This document shows, piece by piece, positions 921-11,563 of a DNA stretch of 64,000 bases. A model generated the notes under the pieces. That model was not told the origin of the DNA and searched no databases. It worked only from the letters and a program-made list of their open reading frames with translations. The stretch spans positions 1-64,000 of the forward strand of contig NZ_JARHUJ010000013.1 in NCBI RefSeq assembly GCF_029223285.1, in the 5' to 3' direction. A program made the position numbers and the translations under genes. This DNA is from Paraflavitalea sp. CAU 1676. GTDB taxonomy: Bacteria; Bacteroidota; Bacteroidia; Chitinophagales; Chitinophagaceae. Numbering within the stretch: the first letter of the stretch is position 1; each line of letters begins with the position of its first letter.

Positions 921-1045
921 CACGAAACCCCGCGTGAATACGCAGGGCTATTTTTCATCAAATGCGTTAACCGTAAACCTTATCCTTTCCTATAGAAACA
1001 ACAAAACCGCGTTGGTGTACTAAAGGGATCTCAACTTTTTATTTT
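921..1045 (-). repeat. intergenic repeat element, copy A (candidate leftward small RNA)
   Basis: This is the most diverged of three near full-length copies (others at 4171-4290 and 46599-46730). Read on the minus strand it has an A-rich tract with AGTTGA, TTTAGTACACC, GCGGTTTTGTTGTTTCTATA, AAGGATAAGG, GTTAACG, and finally a hairpin with stem CCCTGCGT/ACGCGGGG at about 931-948. The T-run of this copy is better on the plus strand (951-955), so it may also terminate the SSB-like gene. Confidence 0.55.
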
Positions 1046-1047
1046 CA

Positions 1048-1236
1048 CTTAAGATCACAAATTGTGATCTTAAGATTTTAGGGGTGCAGTTGGTGCCATA
1101 CGGGGTGAGGTATCCCGTTGATCCTTAGTGAGTTGGAGCATGAGGCCGCTAGTCGAATGGCATAGCTTTTAAGCGTTGTGGGCGGCTGGTGCCTGCCCCG
1201 TGTTGCCTTTAAGGTCACAATTTGTGACCTTAAAGG
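1048..1236. repeat. paired-palindrome element, copy 1
   Basis: Two palindromes flank about 131 bp. The first is at 1048-1074: 13-bp arms CTTAAGATCACAA and TTGTGATCTTAAG around one base. The second is at 1206-1236: 15-bp arms CCTTTAAGGTCACAA and TTGTGACCTTAAAGG around one base. The sequence between them is related to that of copy 2 (3943-4126), for example CTTAGTGAGTTGGA and GCTTTTAAGCGTTGTGGGCG. It lies just downstream of the truncated immunity-like gene ending at 1293. Confidence 0.75.
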
Positions 1237-1292
1237 TCGAGTGACAAGGTTAGCACACACCCTCCCATTGGGCCAACTTGTTTTCAATTGTG

Positions 1293-1571
1293 CTACAAAC
1301 TAGTGTCACATTGGTAAATGAGCATCCTTACACATTGTTTTTCTAAAAACTCCACTACCCGTTCGGAGCACAACTTTAAACCCGGCCAATCTGTTTCCAG
1401 AAAGTCAAAATTGTCAAATCCCTTTTTTACGCGAAAGATTTTATCCTTTATTTCAACCCTGCCCTGCAGTAATTCGAGCTGATCATAATCAAGAAGAGAA
1501 CTATTAGCTGCTTTTTTGTTATCTCTGTCGGGTGTCTTTTTTAATAAGTAATACTTATTCATGAAAATCAT
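1293..1571 (-). CDS. small Imm11/DUF1629-like protein, probably truncated
   Basis: A 92-aa frame (start 1571, or the ATG at 1562 giving MNKYYLLKK, which looks the better start). The segment DNFDFLETDWPGLKLCSERVVEFLEK resembles the core of the Imm11 (DUF1629) family, where a phrase of the type 'DfL....g.plvServkdlLe' precedes the C-terminal half. Family members are roughly twice this length, so the gene seems to end early, shortly before the palindromic element at 1048-1236. If the assignment is right it is an orphan immunity protein of a polymorphic toxin system or a relic of one. No toxin gene is nearby. Confidence 0.45.
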   Translation of the reverse strand: MIFMNKYYLLKKTPDRDNKKAANSSLLDYDQLELLQGRVEIKDKIFRVKKGFDNFDFLETDWPGLKLCSERVVEFLEKQCVRMLIYQCDTSL

Positions 1572-1719
1572 TTATTAATAACCCGTTATACCCTTTGGAT
1601 ATCACTGACGCATTTCAATTAGATAGTAAAGTTCTATATTTTTTGTGGAATGTCATGATGGGCTGAGCTGCTCTTCCAGGACATGACCATTCTGCTTTAT
1701 CAACTTCTTCCGATAGTTA

Positions 1720-1765
1720 CTTTGAAACAAAAAAACGCCTGGGTGTACTAAAGGGACTCATTAGT
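1720..1765 (-). repeat. partial copy of the intergenic repeat element (5' part only)
   Basis: The minus strand reads GAGTCCCTTTAGTACACCC, then AGGCGTTTTTTTGTTTC. This matches the promoter-proximal part of copies A, B and D, but without the downstream leader and hairpin. It sits just after the stop of the lipoprotein gene at 1777. Confidence 0.4.
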
Positions 1766-1776
1766 GGAAAGCCGGA

Positions 1777-2382
1777 TTATTGCTTTATCAATGTGTCGGC
1801 CAGCTGAATTACTTTATCCTGTTCCTTCTCAAAACCTACGATCGGCCTGGTGGAGGGACGGTTTTCACGTTGATAACGTTCGATCAATGGAAGTGTCTTT
1901 ACAATTTTGAGGACGGTATGAAGATCGGCAATGGATTTGTTTTTTTGGTCGACACTTGCCAGAAACACCTGGTGACGAGCAATTGAAACATTGTACTTAT
2001 TCAAATTGGCTGTAATCAGCGCTTCCATTTTTTTCCGCAAAAGCGAATCCCCAATGGTTTCTATATGGTTGTTGGCAGCCTTTATGTAAGCATCATTCTT
2101 TTCCTTGAATTGGTTGAATGAAGCGATTGAGTCCGGCCAACTCTCCCGAATGGCCGTCAGTTTGTCTTCTAACTCTTTTAAGTCTTTGTCTTTGCTGATC
2201 AGTTCGCTGTAAAGGCTTTCGACCAAATCGTCCCCTCTGCTCTTTGAGACCAATTCGTACGAAGAACTTTTGGCTTCCAAAGCTTTGGGCGTTTCTTGTT
2301 TGGATTTGTCCTGGTGGCCGTTATTGTTGCAGGCTGCAAATGCACAGGCCGCGATGATGGGCAGGTATGTTTTGAGGGTCAT
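1777..2382 (-). CDS. hypothetical lipoprotein with coiled-coil-like helices
   Basis: A 201-aa exported protein. A short hydrophobic signal (residues 4-16) ends in a lipobox with FAAC (Cys 17), followed by an Asn-rich tether. The rest is highly charged and helical, with heptad-like stretches at about 55-85 (SELISKDKDLKELEDKLTAI) and 95-150. No family recognised. The start lies a few bases downstream of a GCTATAATACG promoter-like motif (2391-2412) shared with other leftward genes in this window. Predicted location is the periplasm or outer-membrane inner leaflet. Confidence 0.8.
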   Translation of the reverse strand: MTLKTYLPIIAACAFAACNNNGHQDKSKQETPKALEAKSSSYELVSKSRGDDLVESLYSELISKDKDLKELEDKLTAIRESWPDSIASFNQFKEKNDAYIKAANNHIETIGDSLLRKKMEALITANLNKYNVSIARHQVFLASVDQKNKSIADLHTVLKIVKTLPLIERYQRENRPSTRPIVGFEKEQDKVIQLADTLIKQ

Positions 2383-2390
2383 AATGTAAC

Positions 2391-2412
2391 GCTATAATAC
2401 GTTGCTATTTGC
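2391..2412 (-). promoter_or_regulatory. CGTATTATAGC-type promoter motif
   Basis: The minus strand reads ACGTATTATAGC just upstream of the lipoprotein start at 2382. The same core precedes the genes starting at 24441 (variant), 37688, 42446 and 44537. No good -35 element at 17 bp spacing is visible here, so this copy is weaker than the others. Confidence 0.35.
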
Positions 2413-2627
2413 ACAAATCTATGCCATTAAGGTTTTTTTAACGTCGGGTGTATGGGGCCGTGATCGGGACCTGAGTTCGGGCAGCTGATGTACCTACCTG
2501 GTCAACCTCAGGCAAGCTGCACTTCGTCAGAGAGATGCGTTAATCATAGGACTATTCGGTTCTTCGTCAGATGCCTGCGGTACTGGATGGCAGCTAAGGC
2601 TAACTTGGTGCTTTGATTAAATTCCTT

Positions 2628-3893
2628 ATGAAGTGTATGTTAGCCGCATTATTAACCTGTTTCGTTTTATGCAGCTGTTCTAAACCATCCAACGATCCTT
2701 CAACCGGCAAAGTATTGGTGACTGAGCAGGGCCAGCCCTATGGCCTGCTGGCTGAACAGGTGATCGGACCGCAAGGGGGCAGCCTCGCTTCGGCAGACAG
2801 CCGGCTACAAGTGATCATCCCTGCCGGTGCATTGACCGGCAATACGACTATCAGGGTGCAGGCGATCCAAAATACCAACCCAGCCGGCGTGGGCCTGAGC
2901 TACCGGATAAGCCCTTCCCTGTCATTTGCCAAACCGGTCACTATAAAAGTAGACTACAGTGGAGTGGATTCATTAGATATCGACCCCTGCAACCTGAGTT
3001 TGGGTTACCAGGATTCTTCCGGAGCCTGGAAGATGAAAATGAACCGGGTGATCGATGCCGTGAATCGTATATTAAGCATCGAGGCATCGAAGGGCGGCGA
3101 CTGGTGCCTTTTATCACCCATCCGCCTCGTGCCCCTGGAAAGTTATATCAAAAAGAACGAACAGGTGAAACTACAGGTATTGAGTTTCGTGGGAGGAATA
3201 GGTTCGGAAGGATTGTGCGGCCTCTGGAATCCCTCTAATGATCATCATGGCGAACAGGCGTTGGTGTTTGGCGCCCCCGTGCTGCCGGCCCTGATAGATA
3301 AGTGGGAATTGCTTGCCACTGGGTATGGTGTGGGTACGCTGACCCCACAAGGAGCTACGGCTATTTATAAGGCTTCGGACAAGGACAATCCCATCATGAA
3401 CCCCGCTTCCATTGCTGTGACCTTAAAAGGGTTCCCCCGCAACATGCTGGCACGCGTGTATGTAGAGCCGGAAGAAACGTATATTATGATCACCCTGGGT
3501 TCCAAAACCTATATTTATGCAGCGGCAGAAGCCGAGAGGATTGTCAGCAGCAACACGTACAGTATTTCCTGGGAAGAAAGACCTTCCCGTATCGAGCGCG
3601 GTTACATCGTCTGGGGAGGCAATGCTATAGGAAATCATGTTTGGGATATGAAGTTTAACCAGTTCCATTTTTCGCCGGAGGATTTTCCCAATGACGGCTT
3701 CCTGATCAGTCATGCCGGCGAATTAGGAAAATTCCCCAGTGACGGCTATGTGAAGATAGACCAGTTTGGGGCCGTTGGCCAGTTCGTAACTGGCACTTTT
3801 GTGGTTACCAATGCCGCACGTCATGATCCGGATCAGGGGTACCTGGGAAGCTCTTCGGTCTCCGGACGCTTTAAGGCAAGAAGGACGGAATAG
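2628..3893 (+). CDS. ZU5-domain-containing surface lipoprotein
   Basis: The ATG at 2628 gives 421 aa and is preferred over the TTG at 2613. A signal peptide ends in the lipobox VLCSC. Residues about 45-95 contain the ZU5-type pattern 'GPQGGSLASADSRLQVIIPAGAL', shortened here to its core GGSL...VIIPAGAL, where the family usually has 'GG.v...dg.v.l.iPpgAl'. After it come beta-rich repeats and a C-terminal region of about 300 residues with no clear family, including many aromatic residues and WGGNAIGNHVWDMKF. Probably an outer-surface or periplasmic protein of unknown role. A single gene, followed by the paired-palindrome element. Confidence 0.8.
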   Translation: MKCMLAALLTCFVLCSCSKPSNDPSTGKVLVTEQGQPYGLLAEQVIGPQGGSLASADSRLQVIIPAGALTGNTTIRVQAIQNTNPAGVGLSYRISPSLSFAKPVTIKVDYSGVDSLDIDPCNLSLGYQDSSGAWKMKMNRVIDAVNRILSIEASKGGDWCLLSPIRLVPLESYIKKNEQVKLQVLSFVGGIGSEGLCGLWNPSNDHHGEQALVFGAPVLPALIDKWELLATGYGVGTLTPQGATAIYKASDKDNPIMNPASIAVTLKGFPRNMLARVYVEPEETYIMITLGSKTYIYAAAEAERIVSSNTYSISWEERPSRIERGYIVWGGNAIGNHVWDMKFNQFHFSPEDFPNDGFLISHAGELGKFPSDGYVKIDQFGAVGQFVTGTFVVTNAARHDPDQGYLGSSSVSGRFKARRTE

Positions 3894-3942
3894 CTCAAGT
3901 CTAATAAATATTGGCATTCTTATTTTTTTTCACCCCGTATTC

Positions 3943-4126
3943 AAGATCACAATTTGTGATCTTAAGATTTCGGCGTTGCTGTCGCTGCTTTGCAAGTTAA
4001 TAGTATACCATTCATACTTAGTAAGTTGGATGTTAGACAGCAAAGTCGAGTGGCGTTGCTTTTAAACGTTACGGGCGGCTGATTCCTCTTCATGTCGTGT
4101 TCAAGGTCACAAATTGTGACCTTGAA
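3943..4126. repeat. paired-palindrome element, copy 2
   Basis: Palindromes at 3943-3963 (10-bp arms AAGATCACAA and TTGTGATCTT) and 4100-4126 (13-bp arms TTCAAGGTCACAA and TTGTGACCTTGAA), each around one central base. The spacing and the A-type/G-type order match copy 1. The intervening sequence is alignable with copy 1 in its right half (CTTAGTAAGTTGGAT; GCTTTTAAACGTTACGGGCG). It lies between the ZU5 lipoprotein gene and repeat element copy B. Confidence 0.75.
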
Positions 4127-4170
4127 GGTTCAGGGCTTCATACTAGTCCACTCTCCCCGCATACAATAGT

Positions 4171-4290
4171 AAAAGCCCCGCATTGAAATGCAGGGCGTAC
4201 ACTAATCAAATTCGTTAACCATTAAACCTTATCCTTTATTATAGAAACAACAAAACCGCATCTGTGTACTAAACGAAAGCAAACTTTATT
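4171..4290 (-). repeat. intergenic repeat element, copy B (candidate leftward small RNA)
   Basis: Near full-length copy. On the minus strand: AAAGTTTGC, TTTAGTACACAG, GCGGTTTTGTTGTTTCTATA, AAGGATAAGGTTTAATGG, TTAACGAATTTGATTAG, GTGTACGCC, then a hairpin (4175-4196) with stem GCCCTGCATT/AATGCGGGGC and a TTTT tail. The U-G pair in the stem would be an A-C mismatch on the plus strand, so the minus strand is the likely RNA. A tiny frame MVNEFD follows an AAGGATAAGG Shine-Dalgarno-like run. Confidence 0.6.
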
Positions 4291-4375
4291 TTGGGGAAAT
4301 CTTTTCTGCAGCTGTCAAGATAGTAATTGGTGCCTGGGCGGCTTGGGTAAGGTTGATGCTAGAGGTGCCGCTTCG

Positions 4376-4404
4376 ATAATAAAAAAAGCCACCATAAGGT
4401 GGCT
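4376..4404 (-). terminator. intrinsic terminator of the DUF6934 operon
   Basis: Stem AGCCACC/GGTGGCT with a four-base loop (4387-4404). On the minus strand it is followed by seven Ts and AT-rich sequence. It lies 24 bases beyond the stop of the 54-aa gene and closes that leftward two-gene unit. Confidence 0.85.
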
Positions 4405-4427
4405 CGATATCATTATTGTTTACAGGC

Positions 4428-4592
4428 TCATTTTACATGCCTGAACTTAGTTTTGGACAATATCCTATTGGCCTGCTCTAACTTTTCTGGGAAGTATACC
4501 TTTTCGGATTTCTCCTTAACTACCGTAAGGGTCATCCCCAGAGATGCTGCCAATTTAGAGGCCCGTTTTTTATTACTTGCCTTTACCTTCAT
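4428..4592 (-). CDS. 54-aa basic helical protein, partner of DUF6934
   Basis: A short frame starting at ATG 4592 (MKVKASNKKRASKLAASLGM) and ending at TGA 4428-4430. It is very basic at the N-terminus (K/R at 2, 4, 8, 9, 10, 13) and then helical, with VVKEKSEKVYFPEKLEQANRILSKTKF. It begins 12 bases after the stop of the DUF6934 gene and is followed directly by an intrinsic terminator, so both are almost certainly co-transcribed. The KLAASLGMTLTVVKEKSEKVYFP stretch could be a small helix-turn-helix, or a helical antitoxin-like partner; this is inference. No family recognised. Confidence 0.65.
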   Translation of the reverse strand: MKVKASNKKRASKLAASLGMTLTVVKEKSEKVYFPEKLEQANRILSKTKFRHVK

Positions 4593-4604
4593 ATTACAAA
4601 TATA

Positions 4605-5057
4605 CTATTTTTTACTTACTAGAAAACCTAGATATTCAAGTCCTTTTTCGAAAGCAACTTCAATGTAATTATCCTTTTCGGTTAAAAGGCCAAGTATTTC
4701 AAACTCAATCGATAGTTCCTCATAATTCAGGCATATTGCCATTCGATACAATCTTGTCCTTTCAGGCGTGCTCCCTGAAAAAAATAACCTTTTTTCAGGA
4801 TGTGTTATAAAGAAGTATCTAACCGCGGAGACGACCGTAGAAAGAATTTTATTTCGGTCTTTGTTATCATCCCTTGCAAGGTCATCTATGGTGCCATCTG
4901 CCTTTTTATTGCCGAATGCAAGCATCAAGGTTGACTCGTCAAGGGTTTTGGTAAACTGTATTATCTTAGGTATCTCGCCCTTGGGGCCCTTACTTGTGAA
5001 TTCGTATTCCAGGTAATCGTCGCTGATCGATAGGTTGTCATACCTTTCATGTTTCAT
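4605..5057 (-). CDS. DUF6934 family protein
   Basis: A 150-aa protein if started at the ATG at 5057 (MKHERYDNLSI); the longer frame to 5090 adds an unlikely cysteine-rich lead. The order of motifs is typical of this Bacteroidota family: an F/YEF-SKGPKGEIPKIIQF strand near residue 20, LAFGNK, a D-rich loop, STVVSAVRYFFITHPEKRLFFSGSTPERTRLYRMAI (the conserved 'G.tp.RtrLY' block, residues about 95-112), and a C-terminal EKGLEYLGFLVSKK. Function is unknown. It is the first gene of a two-gene unit with the 54-aa protein. Confidence 0.75.
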   Translation of the reverse strand: MKHERYDNLSISDDYLEYEFTSKGPKGEIPKIIQFTKTLDESTLMLAFGNKKADGTIDDLARDDNKDRNKILSTVVSAVRYFFITHPEKRLFFSGSTPERTRLYRMAICLNYEELSIEFEILGLLTEKDNYIEVAFEKGLEYLGFLVSKK

Positions 5058-5457
5058 AGGATTCTTCTTTCTGCATCTGTGGCTCGACATACATCCTCAT
5101 GCACGGATATTGAGGTGTATGATTCTTCCGCAAGGTCGTTTGATTAATTAAGTTCCTTTTTATTAGAAACAACTAATTGAAGCTTACGTACCAAAGAGGG
5201 TTCAACTTTTTTTCTGTCAAGGCATGTGCCTGGGTAACGGAATCGGCGCACGGTGTTTTTTTCTGGCACTCACCGCGTCGCCCATGCTTCCACCCTCCCC
5301 CAAAAAATGTCGCACTTTCAATTCATCATCTTAACAGTCAATTAAAGCATTTTACCACACCAGCTATCCATACATAGGGCCTGGCCAATAGTTTTGGCCG
5401 CAATAAGTTCAGGCTTCCTGGCATTTGCCGGGAAGCTGATCTTTAAAAGACCGTTTT
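5058..5457. other. 400-bp gap with a degenerate repeat copy
   Basis: No convincing gene. At 5161-5215 the minus strand carries a decayed copy of the intergenic element (AAAAAAAGTTGAACCC, CTTTGGTACGTA, TTAGTTGTTTCTAATAAAAAGG). At about 5412-5435 an inverted repeat (CTTCCTGGCA/TGCCGGGAAG) lies in the leader of the downstream TPR gene. Confidence 0.5.
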
Positions 5458-7599
5458 ATGAAGAAAACAGTAAAGGCATGTTGCTTATTCATATTGATAA
5501 GCTGTCTGTGGAATGTCGCTGGTGCACAGGATAAGAAACAAACCAGTGCAGAATATCAAAAGATGCGGGAAGAGCTATTGAAGAAGATGAAAGACCTGCC
5601 ACCGGATGAAGCCAAGAAGGTGATGGACATGCTGGAGCAGGGCGAAAAGAACATGGCGAAAGCCGGGCCGGAAATGAGAGAGCGGGAAAAGGACACTGCT
5701 TTGTTTCCTGGCAGAAGCGGCAAGCTTTCTTCTATACCGGCTAAGGTCATGACGAAGGCGGAAGTACAAAAATACGTCGGTGCTGTGTATACCACCATCG
5801 TTACGAAAGTTCCGGCGGCACACAAAAAGGAGATTGACAAGATCATAACTACCACCGCACCCGGTAAACTATCGCAACTCGCGATAGCGGGCTGGTATTA
5901 TAGAAAGGCGCCGGTTACCGCCGTTGCCCTGGCTGCCAAAGCGAGCGAACAAAATGTAGATGATGGACTGGCTTTGAATAATCTTTCGGCCTTGCTGAAC
6001 ATGGGTAATGTACCGGAGAAAGCCATTCCCATTTTGCTGTATCTCGTTCAGAAGCTGCCCAATGATCCGCTCGTATTAAATAACCTGGGGCAATGTTATG
6101 CAGCATTGGGCGACAAAGCCAATGCTAGATTATACCTGCTGCGTTGCGTAAAGATAAACCCCAAACATCCGGAAGCCAATAATACCCTTGGCCATATCGA
6201 GGCTGCAGAAGGCAATAATGCCAGGGCGACGGATTTTGCTAAAAACTCCCTGGAGGGAGGCTTTACCGAGGCCGCCAGCAACCTGTTGAAACGGGTAGAA
6301 CCCAAAAAAGTATATGAAGCAACTATCCCCAAAGTAGAGTTGCCCGACGGGTTTAATGAATATAAAATTAAATTACCCCAGCTGCAGCTGTTGGTGACGG
6401 AGGCTGAAGCGGTCAAGGCAGATACGAGGGCTTTTGGTGATGCATTGGTGGCTACTTCCGGCAAGTTAAATAATCTGTACGGTCCGTTAGAAAAGGAAGG
6501 CCTCGCGCTGATGCAAAAAGAACAGCAGAAACTATTTGCCAATCCCGACAGGCTAAGCAACTTTGGCCGTACCTTCTCTTCGCTCGCCACTTTTAAATTA
6601 AGGCATTTCTCGAAAAATGTGCGGGCCGATACCGATGTGCTGAAGAAGATTGATGAAGATCATAGACTACAGGTAACACGACTGGACAGTAATTATAAAA
6701 AGAAGGCCCTGTCTATAGAGGCAGAGTATACTGAAAAGATAAAAGGGCTGAAATGTGCAGACGGCCGGCCGGGCGATTGTGCTCAATTGGAAAGGTTGAC
6801 GAAGGAACGCTGCATCAAGCTCAATGATGCCGCCAATATTTACCTGAAAGACCGGGCCGGGGCTACGGAAAACTACCGCCGGAAGCGGCAGCACTTTTCA
6901 TTAAGCGTGTTTTACGTTACTTCCTACTGGGGTTATCTTTCTGCCCAAAACAAGCAATTGGCCCAGGCTGCCTATTATAAGGCTGCACAGGAATATATAA
7001 ACAGCCTTAAGATCTTCAACAACTCATTTACAATTAATCCCGCCTGCGGCTACCAGGACAGAAAGCCTGTAAAGCAGGAAATCGCTCCTGAATGGAAACT
7101 GGAATGTCCTGTTGATATTAAGATTCCTTTTGTTGTGGGCGAGCTATCTGTGAATTGTGAGGAGGCAGGTTTTAGTATGGGAGAAGGTGCTCAATTCAGC
7201 TTTACGCAGAACTTCATAACCCGTCAATCTACGTTTTCTATAGGCATTGGTGCCAGTGCCTCTACAGGTGCCTCCCTGCCGGGCGTTGAAGGCAGTTTGG
7301 CAGCAAGTGTTAGTCAGACCTTATACATCACCTACGATGGCATCAATCATATTTCCGACCTGGGCATGAAATTCGGCGCCGGTGTTTCTGCCGGGTATGA
7401 ATTTTCCGGTAGCGTATCGAAAGGTGGCTTCGAAATAGAAGCGAGTAAAGAAGGAGGCAGTGTAAAAGCAGGAGTAGGTTACACGATCGGCATTAGTAGT
7501 GGTTATGGACCTCATATAGATTTTGAAGAAGGCCCCTTCAAGCAGCTGTTTGCCGGCGAAAAGCAGGTAAATCCGCAGGTGAACATTTATAAGAAATAA
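5458..7599 (+). CDS. large exported tetratricopeptide-repeat protein
   Basis: 713 aa. Residues 1-23 are a signal peptide ending AGA-QDKK. A charged helical segment (30-75) follows. TPR units run from about 168 to 260, with the typical LNNLGQCYAALGDKANARLYL and NNTLGHIEAAEGN patterns. Residues about 395-480 are coiled-coil-like with a CADGRPGDC insert. The C-terminal 120 residues turn into a glycine/serine-rich beta pattern of alternating strands (SIGIGASASTGAS, KFGAGVSAGYEFSGSVSKGG), resembling an outer-membrane-type or self-assembling beta domain. Such a TPR-plus-beta arrangement suggests an envelope scaffold, but no specific role can be assigned. Confidence 0.85.
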   Translation: MKKTVKACCLFILISCLWNVAGAQDKKQTSAEYQKMREELLKKMKDLPPDEAKKVMDMLEQGEKNMAKAGPEMREREKDTALFPGRSGKLSSIPAKVMTKAEVQKYVGAVYTTIVTKVPAAHKKEIDKIITTTAPGKLSQLAIAGWYYRKAPVTAVALAAKASEQNVDDGLALNNLSALLNMGNVPEKAIPILLYLVQKLPNDPLVLNNLGQCYAALGDKANARLYLLRCVKINPKHPEANNTLGHIEAAEGNNARATDFAKNSLEGGFTEAASNLLKRVEPKKVYEATIPKVELPDGFNEYKIKLPQLQLLVTEAEAVKADTRAFGDALVATSGKLNNLYGPLEKEGLALMQKEQQKLFANPDRLSNFGRTFSSLATFKLRHFSKNVRADTDVLKKIDEDHRLQVTRLDSNYKKKALSIEAEYTEKIKGLKCADGRPGDCAQLERLTKERCIKLNDAANIYLKDRAGATENYRRKRQHFSLSVFYVTSYWGYLSAQNKQLAQAAYYKAAQEYINSLKIFNNSFTINPACGYQDRKPVKQEIAPEWKLECPVDIKIPFVVGELSVNCEEAGFSMGEGAQFSFTQNFITRQSTFSIGIGASASTGASLPGVEGSLAASVSQTLYITYDGINHISDLGMKFGAGVSAGYEFSGSVSKGGFEIEASKEGGSVKAGVGYTIGISSGYGPHIDFEEGPFKQLFAGEKQVNPQVNIYKK

Positions 7600-7858
7600 C
7601 TTACTGTTTAATCCGCTGGTGAATTTCTACGTTGATAACCTGAATTCAACGGCATTTTCGAACACCTCAGCACGCTATTCGCGCACACCGGCCGTCAAAG
7701 CCTTATTCCAGGTTACCAGGCAGCGTTCTACCAACAACATAATGAATTTTGATGTCGTTTGTTTGCTCACGCGAACCCCTGCAATTCAGTCATCATAAAC
7801 GACTTGTATGGACATCCAACTTATGTCCTGTACCGGTAAAAAAACGAAATCTGTATCT

Positions 7859-9832
7859 ATGCAAATCAAATCCATTTTACGGCCACGTGCCAGACTGTTG
7901 TTTACCCTGCCAGTTATTGGCCTCCTGCTGGCCCTCGTAATAGGGTGCCACAAAAAAGACAAACCAGCGCAGGATCCTGGAATAACTTCATTTTCACCGG
8001 CTGAGGCAGCCGAAGGTGCTACCATTGTGATAAAAGGTGTTGCTTTTTCGTCCGACAAATCACAGAATACGGTTAAGTTCAATGGCACGCCGGCAACCAT
8101 AAACACGGCCACCGCCACAGAGCTTTCGGTGACTGTTCCTGAAGACGCAACAACGGGAAAGATCACGGTAACCATAGGTGACAAGGTTGTTGCTTCTGCT
8201 ACCGATTTTAAAGTAAACCCCACGGCTCCCATTATTTCGAACCTGATACCCGAAAAAGGCGATATTGGCCTGCTGGTGGAAATTACCGGCAACCGCTTCA
8301 CCGTAAACAGCAAGGTGTATTTTGGCGGCATAGCAGCCACGGAAGTAACTTTCGTAAGTAAAACAAAACTTACTGCCAAAGTTCCTGCAGGAGCCTTGAA
8401 CGGAAAGGTGAAGGTAACGGCTAGCAGCCTCGAAGCATTGAGCATGGCCGACTTCTGGGTGAAGCCAACCATCACTGGGTTTACCCCCGATAAGGCAACA
8501 GAAGGAGATGTCATTGAGATCAGTGGGACCAACTTCAGTACGGTATTAACAGATAACGCTGTACGCTTTGGTTCTATAGCGGCCACTGAAATTACAGAAG
8601 CTACCGCTACTAAATTAAAAGTGAAAGTGCCGGCGGCTGCCCCCTTCGATAAGATCAGCGTAACCATAAAAGGCCAGGAAGCTATCAGTGCTGAAAAGTT
8701 CACCATACTTCCTTCTATTACTGCCTTTTCACCCGACCACGGCCCAAGAGGATCGCAGGTATCGCTGACGGGGAAGAATTTTCTGGCGACTGCGGAAGTT
8801 TGGTTTGGGCCTTTGCAAATTACCAGCTTTACAGAGCGAACCCCTACAAGTATTAAGTTCGATGTGCCGCCGACAGCTTTAACTGGTAAAGTAGTGATAA
8901 AACAGGTGGGTAACACTGTAGAGGGGGGCTGGTTTACGGTGACCAATCTAATGGAGTTGCGCAACAACATGGAATATGGTCATTACCGGGATAACATTTC
9001 ATTCGTGCATAATAACAAGATATATGTGGGCTTGGGTTATGGCAACGGTAGCAATACCAACCACAATCCTGGCTTCAGGGTATTTGATCCGGCTAGTAAT
9101 ACCTGGTCGGCCGGACCGGTACTGCCCTCCACTATGCTCCCACGCAACAATGGCACAGCTGCGGTTTTAAACGGAAAACTGTATGTTGGCGCCGGCAGCA
9201 ATTGGATGGGGAGTACGCTTAACTATCTGAACGACTGGTGGCAGTATGATCCGGCCCAAACCGGAGATGCAGCCTGGAAAAAAATGAATGACGCGCCTTA
9301 TCAACTGGACGCTACCGGTACATTTACCATTAACGGGGTATTATACACTGCCAGGAGCCAAAGCATTTACCAGTTTGACCCTGCCGCTGCTGCTGGCATG
9401 GGCACTTTTACCAACAAAGCGGTTGCAGGGGTACCCTATATCGAGAAGGCAACTACGGTTGTAATCGGTAATGATCTGTATTGGTTTGGTGGCTATTCCA
9501 AAACTACGTTTAGCTGGACCAATAAATTGTATAAGTATAGTCCGGCAACCAACAGCATCACCAGCAACCTGGCTGATTGCCCGGTAAGTCCGTATACGGA
9601 ATCGCCTGGCTTTACGATAAACGGAAAATTATACGTGCTGGTGGCAGAAATTGTCGGAACCATTTCCCAGGTGAATTTGTATGAATATGATCCCGCCACC
9701 AATAGCTGGAGCAAGATGCTTACCCTGCCCAATACGTTTATGTCTGGAAATTACAACGCAGCCGTAGTGGCCGGGAAAATCTATGCCTGGACACCTGAGG
9801 GCATCGTGTATAGGTATAATCCCAATTATTAA
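7859..9832 (+). CDS. IPT/TIG-repeat lipoprotein with C-terminal Kelch propeller
   Basis: The ATG at 7859 gives 657 aa (MQIKSILRPRARLLF). A signal peptide ends in lipobox VIGC before HKKDK. At least four IPT/TIG immunoglobulin-like units follow (residues about 35-365), each opening with a phrase such as ITSFSPAEAAEGATIVIKG and containing VKFNG or VYFGG. The C-terminal 280 residues are Kelch-type repeats with FDPASNTWSAGPVLP, YDPAQTGDAAWKKM and YDPATNSWSKMLTLP blades. The protein is likely surface-exposed, the IPT stalk presenting the propeller for binding carbohydrate or protein. The upstream frame from 7808 has no better start. Confidence 0.85.
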   Translation: MQIKSILRPRARLLFTLPVIGLLLALVIGCHKKDKPAQDPGITSFSPAEAAEGATIVIKGVAFSSDKSQNTVKFNGTPATINTATATELSVTVPEDATTGKITVTIGDKVVASATDFKVNPTAPIISNLIPEKGDIGLLVEITGNRFTVNSKVYFGGIAATEVTFVSKTKLTAKVPAGALNGKVKVTASSLEALSMADFWVKPTITGFTPDKATEGDVIEISGTNFSTVLTDNAVRFGSIAATEITEATATKLKVKVPAAAPFDKISVTIKGQEAISAEKFTILPSITAFSPDHGPRGSQVSLTGKNFLATAEVWFGPLQITSFTERTPTSIKFDVPPTALTGKVVIKQVGNTVEGGWFTVTNLMELRNNMEYGHYRDNISFVHNNKIYVGLGYGNGSNTNHNPGFRVFDPASNTWSAGPVLPSTMLPRNNGTAAVLNGKLYVGAGSNWMGSTLNYLNDWWQYDPAQTGDAAWKKMNDAPYQLDATGTFTINGVLYTARSQSIYQFDPAAAAGMGTFTNKAVAGVPYIEKATTVVIGNDLYWFGGYSKTTFSWTNKLYKYSPATNSITSNLADCPVSPYTESPGFTINGKLYVLVAEIVGTISQVNLYEYDPATNSWSKMLTLPNTFMSGNYNAAVVAGKIYAWTPEGIVYRYNPNY

Positions 9833-9857
9833 CAGCCAATCCATTATCTATTCTTTG

Positions 9858-9884
9858 TTCAAGGTCACAATTTGTGACCTTGAA
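9858..9884. repeat. single palindrome of the AAGRTCACAA family
   Basis: 13-bp arms TTCAAGGTCACAA and TTGTGACCTTGAA around one T, starting 26 bases after the stop of the IPT-Kelch gene and followed by ATTTTTAAT. It could act as a rightward terminator here. The second palindrome of a pair is not present downstream. Confidence 0.75.
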
Positions 9885-10027: not shown

Positions 10028-11563
10028 TTATCTATTGAGAATAAAACTCGTCCAGCCACTGGTTCCTATCTGAAAGCCATCTTTCACAATGGTAGTGTAA
10101 TACTTGTAAGAAGTACTTCGGTATAAGACTGGGAAAAAGTTGTAGGATACATTCAACAGGAGATCGCTATAGTAGCCATAGTTATAGGTAGTGTTATCAA
10201 AGCCCGGAATAAAGTTGTAACTGATTGCGAGATTCTGAATCCTTCCGTAAGCGTCGTAGTAGGTGACAGGCGTCCCATTTTCAAAATAGAAATGGGCAAC
10301 CAGTGACAATTGATTTAGTCTGGCGTTTTGTATGGTAAACTTTGGCATCACCTTAATGTTGAAATTGTCAAAGCTTTGTATGTTTATTATGGGAGATATG
10401 ACCGGGCCATTACGGTACGTAAAATAGGCAGCTCCGGCTTGAGCAATTTCTCGTACCTGATCATCAAACACGGAAATAATTACTTTTAGATTGTGATTAC
10501 CGGTTGCCAGATGCAATTCCTCATAAGGAATGAAAAGCTGGGTATTAAATAGTGTTGAAGCGTAGTTCGCAGTTACTTCCTCACCTACTACAACATTACC
10601 ATTGTTCGAATAGTATTGCTGGTTAAAGTCTTTAAGCGGGGTGCCGTTTGCATTATAAAAAAAAGCGACAAACTTGCATTTCTTGCCTTGTGCATTTTGG
10701 ATTTGATAGTTTCCATTGATACCTATGCCATATTTGCCATTGCGAAGCAAATTGTGCGTAATGGCCACGTTGTTAAGTTGGCAAGAGGCAGCAGCACTAC
10801 TGCTGGTAACACCCGGTGATGTAATAGGTGGGGTATTGTAAAATGGATACATTTCTCCTATGAGCTTCTTATCTCCCGCCGAAAGCTCGGTATTCCAGCT
10901 TACAGAATAACCATCCATGGTTAAGGAGCCATCTATCGGATAATGCATGATCGAGGAGGGATCATATTCCTTGTTGGACATTTCTACGCTATAGCGATTC
11001 AGTACCTGTTCATCTACCTTTTGCTGGCTCCAGCCCTGGAGCTGCATGTAATGAGCATAGACTTTGGGTTTATTCCATTGTATACGACTTATCGGTGATT
11101 TATGCTCATGCAATAGCCCCAGCGCGTGACCAAATTCGTGAAGGATCGTCCTTTTTAGTACAATTTCAGGAGTGGATTCACTGAATCCTTCATAATTCAT
11201 CGTCTGTTTGTTCTGCTCAATATTCTTAGAATGTGTACCCGCATAAGACCAATATCCTGAAGGATCAAACCCAATTCGGATATCTGCATTGCCATACGAA
11301 ATGAAGTTGAATTTTATGTTGGCAAAGCTTTCCCACACCCTGGCGTATTCTTTGATCTTTTGATGAATGTGTGAACTGCCTCCAAGAAACCGGACAGTTA
11401 AAATTGATCCATTTGTCCATTTGGCGTTAGCATCAAGTACGCCATATTGCACATTTTCGAGGGAGGTCGTCACTGCTTTATCTATACAGGATGTCAGTTG
11501 ACTAAAACAGGGAGAGGTTAATGATAAAAAGATAGAGAAAGCAGCTAGGCGTAAGAGGTTCAC
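10028..11563 (-). CDS. secreted astacin-like (M12A) zinc metalloprotease
   Basis: 511 aa with a signal peptide (1-21, ending CFS-Q). The zinc motif HEFGHALGLLHEH is complete, with His142, Glu143, His146, Gly149 and His152, followed by a Glu. The Met-turn SIMHYP with Met206 and Tyr208 completes the astacin active site. The catalytic domain covers about residues 35-245. The C-terminal 265 residues are beta-rich with two related halves (FVAFFYNANGTPLKDFN and LVAHFYFENGTPVTYYD), probably a duplicated beta-sandwich for binding. It likely cleaves proteins outside the cell. Divergently transcribed from the secreted ankyrin protein; the shared 169-bp gap must carry both promoters. Confidence 0.9.
   Translation of the reverse strand: MNLLRLAAFSIFLSLTSPCFSQLTSCIDKAVTTSLENVQYGVLDANAKWTNGSILTVRFLGGSSHIHQKIKEYARVWESFANIKFNFISYGNADIRIGFDPSGYWSYAGTHSKNIEQNKQTMNYEGFSESTPEIVLKRTILHEFGHALGLLHEHKSPISRIQWNKPKVYAHYMQLQGWSQQKVDEQVLNRYSVEMSNKEYDPSSIMHYPIDGSLTMDGYSVSWNTELSAGDKKLIGEMYPFYNTPPITSPGVTSSSAAASCQLNNVAITHNLLRNGKYGIGINGNYQIQNAQGKKCKFVAFFYNANGTPLKDFNQQYYSNNGNVVVGEEVTANYASTLFNTQLFIPYEELHLATGNHNLKVIISVFDDQVREIAQAGAAYFTYRNGPVISPIINIQSFDNFNIKVMPKFTIQNARLNQLSLVAHFYFENGTPVTYYDAYGRIQNLAISYNFIPGFDNTTYNYGYYSDLLLNVSYNFFPVLYRSTSYKYYTTIVKDGFQIGTSGWTSFILNR

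Follow-up and report, generated by a model that had tools for sequence, protein, structure and literature searches.

Binding sites for a DNA-binding protein may lie within coding sequence, as in phage lambda, where gene O contains several inverted-repeat sites in tandem for dimers of the O protein (PMC5043065). In this work, we analyzed a stretch of 64,000 nucleotides of Paraflavitalea sp. CAU 1676 (contig NZ_JARHUJ010000013.1, positions 1 to 64,000; hereafter the window), in which an earlier note had pointed out five palindromes with arms carrying AAGATC (A-type) or AAGGTC (G-type), together with the genes of the ORF6N-domain family (Pfam PF10543) in which such palindromes recur. As with lambda O, these would be sites for the dimers of a DNA-binding protein inside that protein's own coding sequence. 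However, lambda O is a phage replication initiator, whereas genes of the ORF6N family are spread over many phyla, some of them on chromosome-sized contigs; furthermore, the ORF6N site differs in that its sequence encodes a loop within the DNA-binding domain and in the residue-base code that links protein and site.

An internal operator within coding sequence is also known from the lac system, where O2 lies in lacZ. Like the putative ORF6N site, O2 is a repressor site within a transcribed coding region, but it resides in the target gene and not in the reader's own gene, and it is not family-wide. REP (repetitive extragenic palindromic) sequences are palindromes found around and away from the gene of their cognate RAYT transposase; the ORF6N case departs from them in having no transposase, few sites and a cognate gene that itself contains a site. 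Palindromic coding elements, such as the Rickettsia palindromic elements (RPEs) and the PARCELs, are coding DNA with dyad symmetry at places where the protein tolerates it (PMC2996958), and PARCELs, like the ORF6N palindromes, are present in a variable number of copies. Unlike ORF6N palindromes, RPEs lie in assorted housekeeping genes, while PARCEL repeats, of 25 residues, lie in genes of unknown function, many of them with membrane-targeting signals; in the portion of PMC2996958 available to us neither is described as being read by its own product, and the terms "ORF6N" and "KilA" are absent from its main text. ORF6N proteins are phage-type regulators of the Bro network; the gene resident in this genome and the genes sampled here are members of this family. 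In the literature searched nothing was found on their binding sites, nor was any site of this kind in ORF6N genes found, although recognition codes as such were not searched for.

Palindromes and putative recognition residues in ORF6N genes

The genome search that the earlier note had proposed (8.84 Mb, with up to two mismatches allowed) returned seven sites, each without mismatch: the five of the window and one each on contigs C17 and C18. The C17 site lies within an open reading frame on the minus strand (L006:1188-1748), where it encodes L-R-S-Q-I-V-I-L-K. This frame is an ORF6N gene (119.9 bits versus a curated cut-off of 27.8) and the sole ORF6N match of the genome at E <= 0.001, and it thus provides, by predicted binding, the candidate for the cognate regulator that the note had envisaged. 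Its protein carries Arg39, Gln43 and Lys84 (residue numbers follow the Flavobacterium gene L079) and its in-gene half-site is TTTAAGATCACAA; translated in the C17 frame, the A-type gives ...V-I-L and the G-type gives ...V-T-L. The C18 site (L007:1501-1521) is intergenic, flanked by the frame of a phage integrase (81-1469) and by that of a DUF6088 protein (1596-2228), the latter with weak AbiEi matches. None of the seven sites falls within any gene-like frame other than ORF6N; two short mechanical frames overlap sites (window 3799-4065 and L007 1408-1638).

Of 294 family genomes, 67 contained the pattern when two mismatches were tolerated, and one contained its reversed control. An ORF6N match was present in 65 of these 67 genomes and in 86 of the 227 without the site (Fisher p 3e-20), and of 30 loci fetched by the palindrome 27 had an ORF6N match, the other three holding asymmetric matches. 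Loci chosen by palindrome (L009-L038) were kept outside the statistics, for which three ORF6N samples were gathered by protein: family genomes (the family samples and one new-gene sample consisting of 30 loci each, a part of the matches listed), genomes of many phyla (the best 80 of 590 loci) and viral contigs (34 loci, 33 usable). An in-gene palindrome was found in 125 of 143 ORF6N genes (28/30, 71/80 and 26/33, respectively), and in only 7 of the 321 remaining long open frames at these loci, three of which are neighbouring ORF6N genes and one of which continues an ORF6N frame. The Rha family was considered as a further control and had too few members (6/148 genomes).

The position of the palindrome in the genes is regular, 141 of 145 being in codon phase 0, and in most of them the centre falls on the codon that follows the motif's Gln. 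Complementarity at 122 motif sites averaged 11.05 of 12 flanking pairs, versus 5.14 (standard deviation 1.72) when synonymous codons were redrawn; in this test no region was recognised in 21 of the 143 genes, the 122 sites came from 104 of the remaining 122 genes, and the residue pattern of the motif was written after many palindromes had been inspected. The third base of the Ser codon depends on the residue three places further on (TCA occurring with Val in 72/73 and TCG with Ala in 27/29), and the Leu codon on the residue seven places further on (TTG occurring with Ser in 57/57 and TTA with Leu in 29/30). Some genes read such a palindrome in an alternative frame, giving the unrelated peptides LITNCDK and ELVANCD, and a Treponema plasmid gene carries the core GTCGAAAATTTCGAC in phase 0, while a Segatella plasmid gene carries it in phase 1 (VVENFD). 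Since synonymous codons track the opposite arm and palindromes are read in other frames, the constraint acts on the DNA, and the amino-acid motif of the ORF6N loop looks to be largely the translation of a DNA element. Being both site and coding sequence, the palindrome would stay a site only if both arms change jointly, hence the covariation.

Template switching at imperfect inverted repeats is a known mechanism by which mutation alone might yield perfect palindromes without any function, and it would account for symmetric arms in gene relics such as those described below. Nonetheless, the near absence of such palindromes from the other genes of the same loci goes against it and it explains neither the conserved centre, nor the usual arm of about 13, nor the residue-base code, so that we consider it very improbable.

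The strongest association between the protein columns tested and the half-site positions was that of residue 43 with base -4. In the discovery set, Gln occurred with A in 86/89 genes, Glu with G in 31/31, Arg with C in 15/15, Lys with C in 5/5 and Leu with T in 2/2. This set comprises 143 genes of 163 entries, duplicates, lengths outside 100-420 amino acids and genes without palindrome at the threshold used having been removed, and it was built by alignment, which replaced a helix match that had dropped 28 genes. In a new set of 92 genes, 76 with a palindrome and 75 testable (one lacks a usable residue), 69 of the 75 obeyed this rule: Gln-A 32/35, Glu-G 24/24, Lys-C 7/7 and Arg-C 5/6, with Leu-T in only 1/3. 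Two of the six exceptions (L278 and L271) look like misplaced palindromes and were counted against the rule. Contacts of Gln with adenine, of Glu with the cytosine opposite G, and of Arg or Lys with the guanine opposite C are common, and the residue 43 code fits them. The A/G difference between the palindrome types, on which the earlier note had dwelt, corresponds to base -7 and tracks residue 39, tightly for Lys (G in 119/123) and more loosely for Arg (A in 54/77).

Relatedness was handled by means of disjoint nearest-relative pairs among 219 genes. Base -4 differed in 76 of 81 pairs with different residue 43 and in 7 of 102 with equal residue 43 (p 1.4e-36); base -7 differed in 63 of 90 pairs with different residue 39 and in 18 of 100 with equal residue 39 (p 2e-13); and base -10 differed in 71 of 89 pairs with different residue 84 and in 8 of 99 with equal residue 84. 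Where the predicted bases differed, both members fitted in 78 of 84 disjoint pairs. Column 50 gave no signal in disjoint pairs (p 0.33), and columns 64 and 92 had too few pairs (5 and 4). A Parabacteroides plasmid bears three tandem ORF6N genes (L239 1492-3225), the first two of which are 91% alike outside helix and loop, yet differ jointly in residue 43 (Gln, Arg) and in the base (A, C). The earlier note had left a choice between structures and dimer-binding sites; because protein residues track half-site bases, the dimer-binding site, with binding predicted, is the best reading of the palindrome.

Two other readings of the palindrome have to be weighed here. The first is a nucleic-acid hairpin, either an mRNA stem-loop or a single-stranded DNA hairpin, which would control expression or mobility by pairing alone. 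Stems are indeed kept while letters change, even where the centre is other than CAAWTTG (L086, L091, L111); positions +-1, where the hairpin loop would be, are paired in only 65% of cases in genes and in 50% of downstream copies; flanking copies have more G.U than A.C mismatches (14 vs 7, or 7 vs 6 when those lying within other ORF6N segments are left out); and four flanking copies have arms of 21-26 bp, the usual arm being about 13. Conversely, the residue-base code is unexpected for a pure structure, A.C mismatches (18) exceed G.U (12) within genes, the spacer is odd in 101 of 102 best inverted repeats of the loop region, and positions +-1, unable to pair in a hairpin, are complementary in 29 of 32 upstream copies (22 of 24 filtered). 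We consider a hairpin an unlikely explanation.

The second is a selfish palindromic coding element, comparable to those of Rickettsia or to REP/RAYT, that spreads through ORF6N genes and spacers. It would fit the in-frame repeats of the palindrome inside genes at 33-54 bp, the extra copy near the N-terminus of L230, the location in a loop of low predicted confidence, the concentration of copies outside genes near ORF6N and the relics that keep palindromes (see below). Against this, gene-like frames other than ORF6N hold none of the seven Paraflavitalea sites, nearly all family genomes with the site also have ORF6N, and an insertion would not match a helix residue of its host gene; we give such an element little chance.

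In the predicted structure, helix 38-47 and a long helix 105-164 are confident, and the palindrome-coded residues fall in a stretch without regular structure (69-87) between helix and strand, where confidence is lowest at 71-80. The PDB searched by sequence gave no solved relative (best E 0.26), and Foldseek against the PDB gave no match at E 0.001 or below.

Some further observations on these genes were made. Three or four palindromes with differing arm letters occur in or along the ORF6N gene of L015, L025 and L096, at 54-bp steps in L025. The viral ORF6N proteins of L159 and L161/L217 are about 80% identical with an unrelated palindrome-bearing middle region (LITNCDKFPDNI vs LLSIGVSQNVIPPAY), as if this region had been exchanged as a cassette. 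The C-terminal parts of L106, L163 and L236 show, behind the ORF6N domain, weak PLD-like (PF13091) matches under the curated cut-off.

The window palindromes and a probable ORF6N gene relic

The five window palindromes pointed out by the earlier note are all perfect and odd-centred, with arms of 13, 15, 10, 13 and 13, and the A/G letter is matched by the opposite arm in 5/5. The covariation of outer letters, also pointed out in the note, holds in four and fails at 3943, where symmetry ends at +-10. Base composition predicts 0.06 odd palindromes with arms of at least 10 per 64 kb, and AAGRTCACAAWTTGTGAYCTT with up to three mismatches was matched five times in the window, whereas 100 shuffles yielded no match, so that a chance origin is ruled out.

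Four of the palindromes, for which as for the fifth no strand is assigned, form two pairs, the A-type coming first on the plus strand as the note had described, 160 bp from start to start and 75% identical over 187 bp. The first pair consists of the A-type CTTAAGATCACAAATTGTGATCTTAAG (1048..1074), with A at -4, -7 and -10 as in the resident ORF6N gene, and the G-type CCTTTAAGGTCACAATTTGTGACCTTAAAGG (1206..1236), with G at -7, the base commonest with Lys39, the resident protein having Arg39; the second consists of the A-type AAGATCACAATTTGTGATCTT (3943..3963) and the G-type TTCAAGGTCACAAATTGTGACCTTGAA (4100..4126). The fifth is a lone G-type palindrome, TTCAAGGTCACAATTTGTGACCTTGAA (9858..9884), 26 bp past the end of the open reading frame 7808-9832 and before the convergent frame 10028-11563. 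At -4, -7, -8 and -10 the letters of the resident gene recur in both A-type sites of the window (1048 and 3943) and in the C18 site, and the G-type sites at 1206, 4100 and 9858 depart from them at -7, as is usual with Lys39. The A-type sites of the pairs carry the letters of the resident gene (Arg39, Gln43, Lys84), and the G-type sites carry letters typical of a Lys39 relative.

The note had taken the pair with its spacer for a small repeated element. Only two copies, with no third, exist in the 8.84-Mb genome, and no target-site duplication was seen by eye in the 20 bp outside both copies. In each copy, both read on the minus strand (copy 1, 1046..1236; copy 2, 3938..4126, 75% identical to copy 1), two palindromes enclose degenerate ORF6N-like sequence with stops and shifted frames. 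Copy 1 contains the ORF6N pre-loop signature GLMLQLTKDQR (1115..1147, minus strand), equalled by 0/2000 dinucleotide shuffles, and copy 2 contains LSNIQLTKYEW (4008..4040, minus strand), equalled by 1/2000, in a test of the three frames of the minus strand with a signature chosen after reading the sequence. With two copies only, no target duplication and an ORF6N signature in both, the pairs are better regarded as a duplicated gene relic than as a mobile element. The whole-domain ORF6N profile, with palindromes masked, gave no match in the window spacers. A tblastn match of a window spacer to ORF6N (E 0.002) was set aside, since it rests largely on palindrome-coded residues.

Between the two pairs, the palindrome cores are equal at 40 of 42 positions and the spacers at 91 of 140 (p 5.5e-5), which bears out the earlier claim that symmetry is maintained beyond simple duplication. 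The window pairs would accordingly read as one fused ORF6N relic, duplicated once, whose palindromes outlast the coding sequence. There is a second relic case in an orthologous spacer of two species of one genus (G162 vs G259), where one genome has an ORF6N gene with one stop plus palindromes and the other has palindromes without the gene. The empty-site comparison for two isolated palindromes was uninformative, as gene order differs or the alignment is unclear.

A second repeat family adjoins the palindrome pairs (window 974-1043, 4223-4292 and 5145-5214, and also 1731-1756). Its copies have 61-81% identity to the first copy over 70 bp and follow the pattern TAAACCTTATCCTTT..TATAGAAACAACAAAACCGC..GTGTACTAAAG.

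Copies beside the genes and the proposed control

Palindromes outside ORF6N genes cluster near them. When those within other ORF6N segments are disregarded, their density is 0.69 per kb within 100 bp upstream, 0.26 downstream and no higher than 0.023 beyond 400 bp. They resemble the in-gene arms (p 0.0002, and p 0.0022 after filtering out copies that touch other ORF6N segments, a coarse filter that also drops some copies close to the gene). Some of them may represent relics or belong to other ORF6N proteins; it is for the in-gene site that a residue-base match is proven. As for promoter overlap of the upstream palindromes, four TANNTTT[GC] matches in 18 upstream regions are uninformative. Two palindromes upstream of the L213 gene have arms of 25 and 26 bp with locus-specific outer letters, and an isolated palindrome (L200 3098) bears the unusual arms GTGGTATCACAA of the ORF6N locus L199 of the same genome, about 1.85 Mb apart.

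From the residue-base code computed here, we infer that an ORF6N dimer very probably binds the duplex palindrome within its own gene. According to the model, the palindrome would be a duplex site of about 27 bp for a homodimer of the ORF6N-domain protein, each protein having its cognate site within its own gene, where the site would coincide with the codons for a flexible loop, apparently in the wing region of the DNA-binding domain. Bases -7 and -4 of each half-site would be read by residues 39 and 43 of the putative recognition helix 38-47, and bases -8 to -10 possibly by residues 84/85, which lie behind the loop. Sitting about 200 bp inside the gene, the dimer would limit the gene's transcription wherever the gene has moved. 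Such autogenous, promoter-independent limitation of transcription is our best guess for the main purpose of the site, and about as likely as not.

Alternatively, the protein might bind its in-gene site as the cis-acting start of replication or recombination of an element, in the way of lambda O in gene O. The presence of one to four palindromes where the gene encodes a flexible stretch is reminiscent of the lambda iterons (PMC5043065), and ORF6N genes are found on viral contigs, on plasmids and near integrases. They are also found on chromosome-sized contigs, however, with two on an 8.44-Mb contig of G085, and a 2955-bp plasmid with an ORF6N gene carries a separate Rep; we regard a start site as an unlikely alternative. 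The plasmid in question and another of 4140 bp (L233 and L235), both from Segatella copri, have just two annotated genes each, Rep and ORF6N.

Several observations weigh against autogenous binding with residue-base reading. At the threshold used, no palindrome was found in 18 of the 143 ORF6N genes and in 16 of the 92 genes of the new set, and in some genes there are several palindromes whose letters vary and do not all suit a single protein. The flanking copies show no clear agreement with residue 43 of the ORF6N gene beside them (Gln: A 17, G 8, C 2; Glu: A 3, G 3; p 0.64); when 12 of 36 copies were excluded for touching other ORF6N segments, 17 of the remaining 24 agreed with it (p 0.10). 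The helix neighbours 40 and 44 also give a signal at -4 (p 3e-18 and 6e-6), as do, weakly, columns 33, 37 and 57 outside the helix (p 0.004, 0.01 and 0.04); we read the signal of these columns as due to relatedness or neighbourhood. The association of residue 84 with base -10 may come from linkage within one cassette. Paralogues within one genome were not significantly more different than random (28 pairs, 17 genomes; p 0.28). Lastly, the fold match of the DNA-binding domain to a MerR/RacA-type winged helix, that of RacA-DNA (5i44), is weak (Z 5.3, root-mean-square deviation 2.6 over 57 residues), three other chains scoring as high or higher; ahead of it are the Orf22 domain of a granulovirus (Z 6.6) and a domain resembling Ski (Z 6.0).

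Taken together, a homodimer site of the ORF6N protein in its own gene, with residue-base reading, autogenous control and the window pairs as a relic, is the explanation that we favor as a whole, with some reserve. With similar reserve, ORF6N genes may be viewed as a pan-bacterial class of self-reading genes, in which the loop codons double as the duplex target of the domain, residues 39 and 43, and perhaps 84, form a code, and a change of specificity needs a joint change of protein and site. Such a reading gives a function-bearing interpretation to a widespread domain for which little literature and, by sequence, no solved relative were found, and it would allow the targets of many ORF6N regulators to be predicted from a few residues. 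It also offers a clean case of coding DNA with a second, DNA-level message that seems to have shaped the motif LRSQFVTS and, through many related protein-site pairs, it opens to testing how specificity changes in a regulator whose site is in its own gene.

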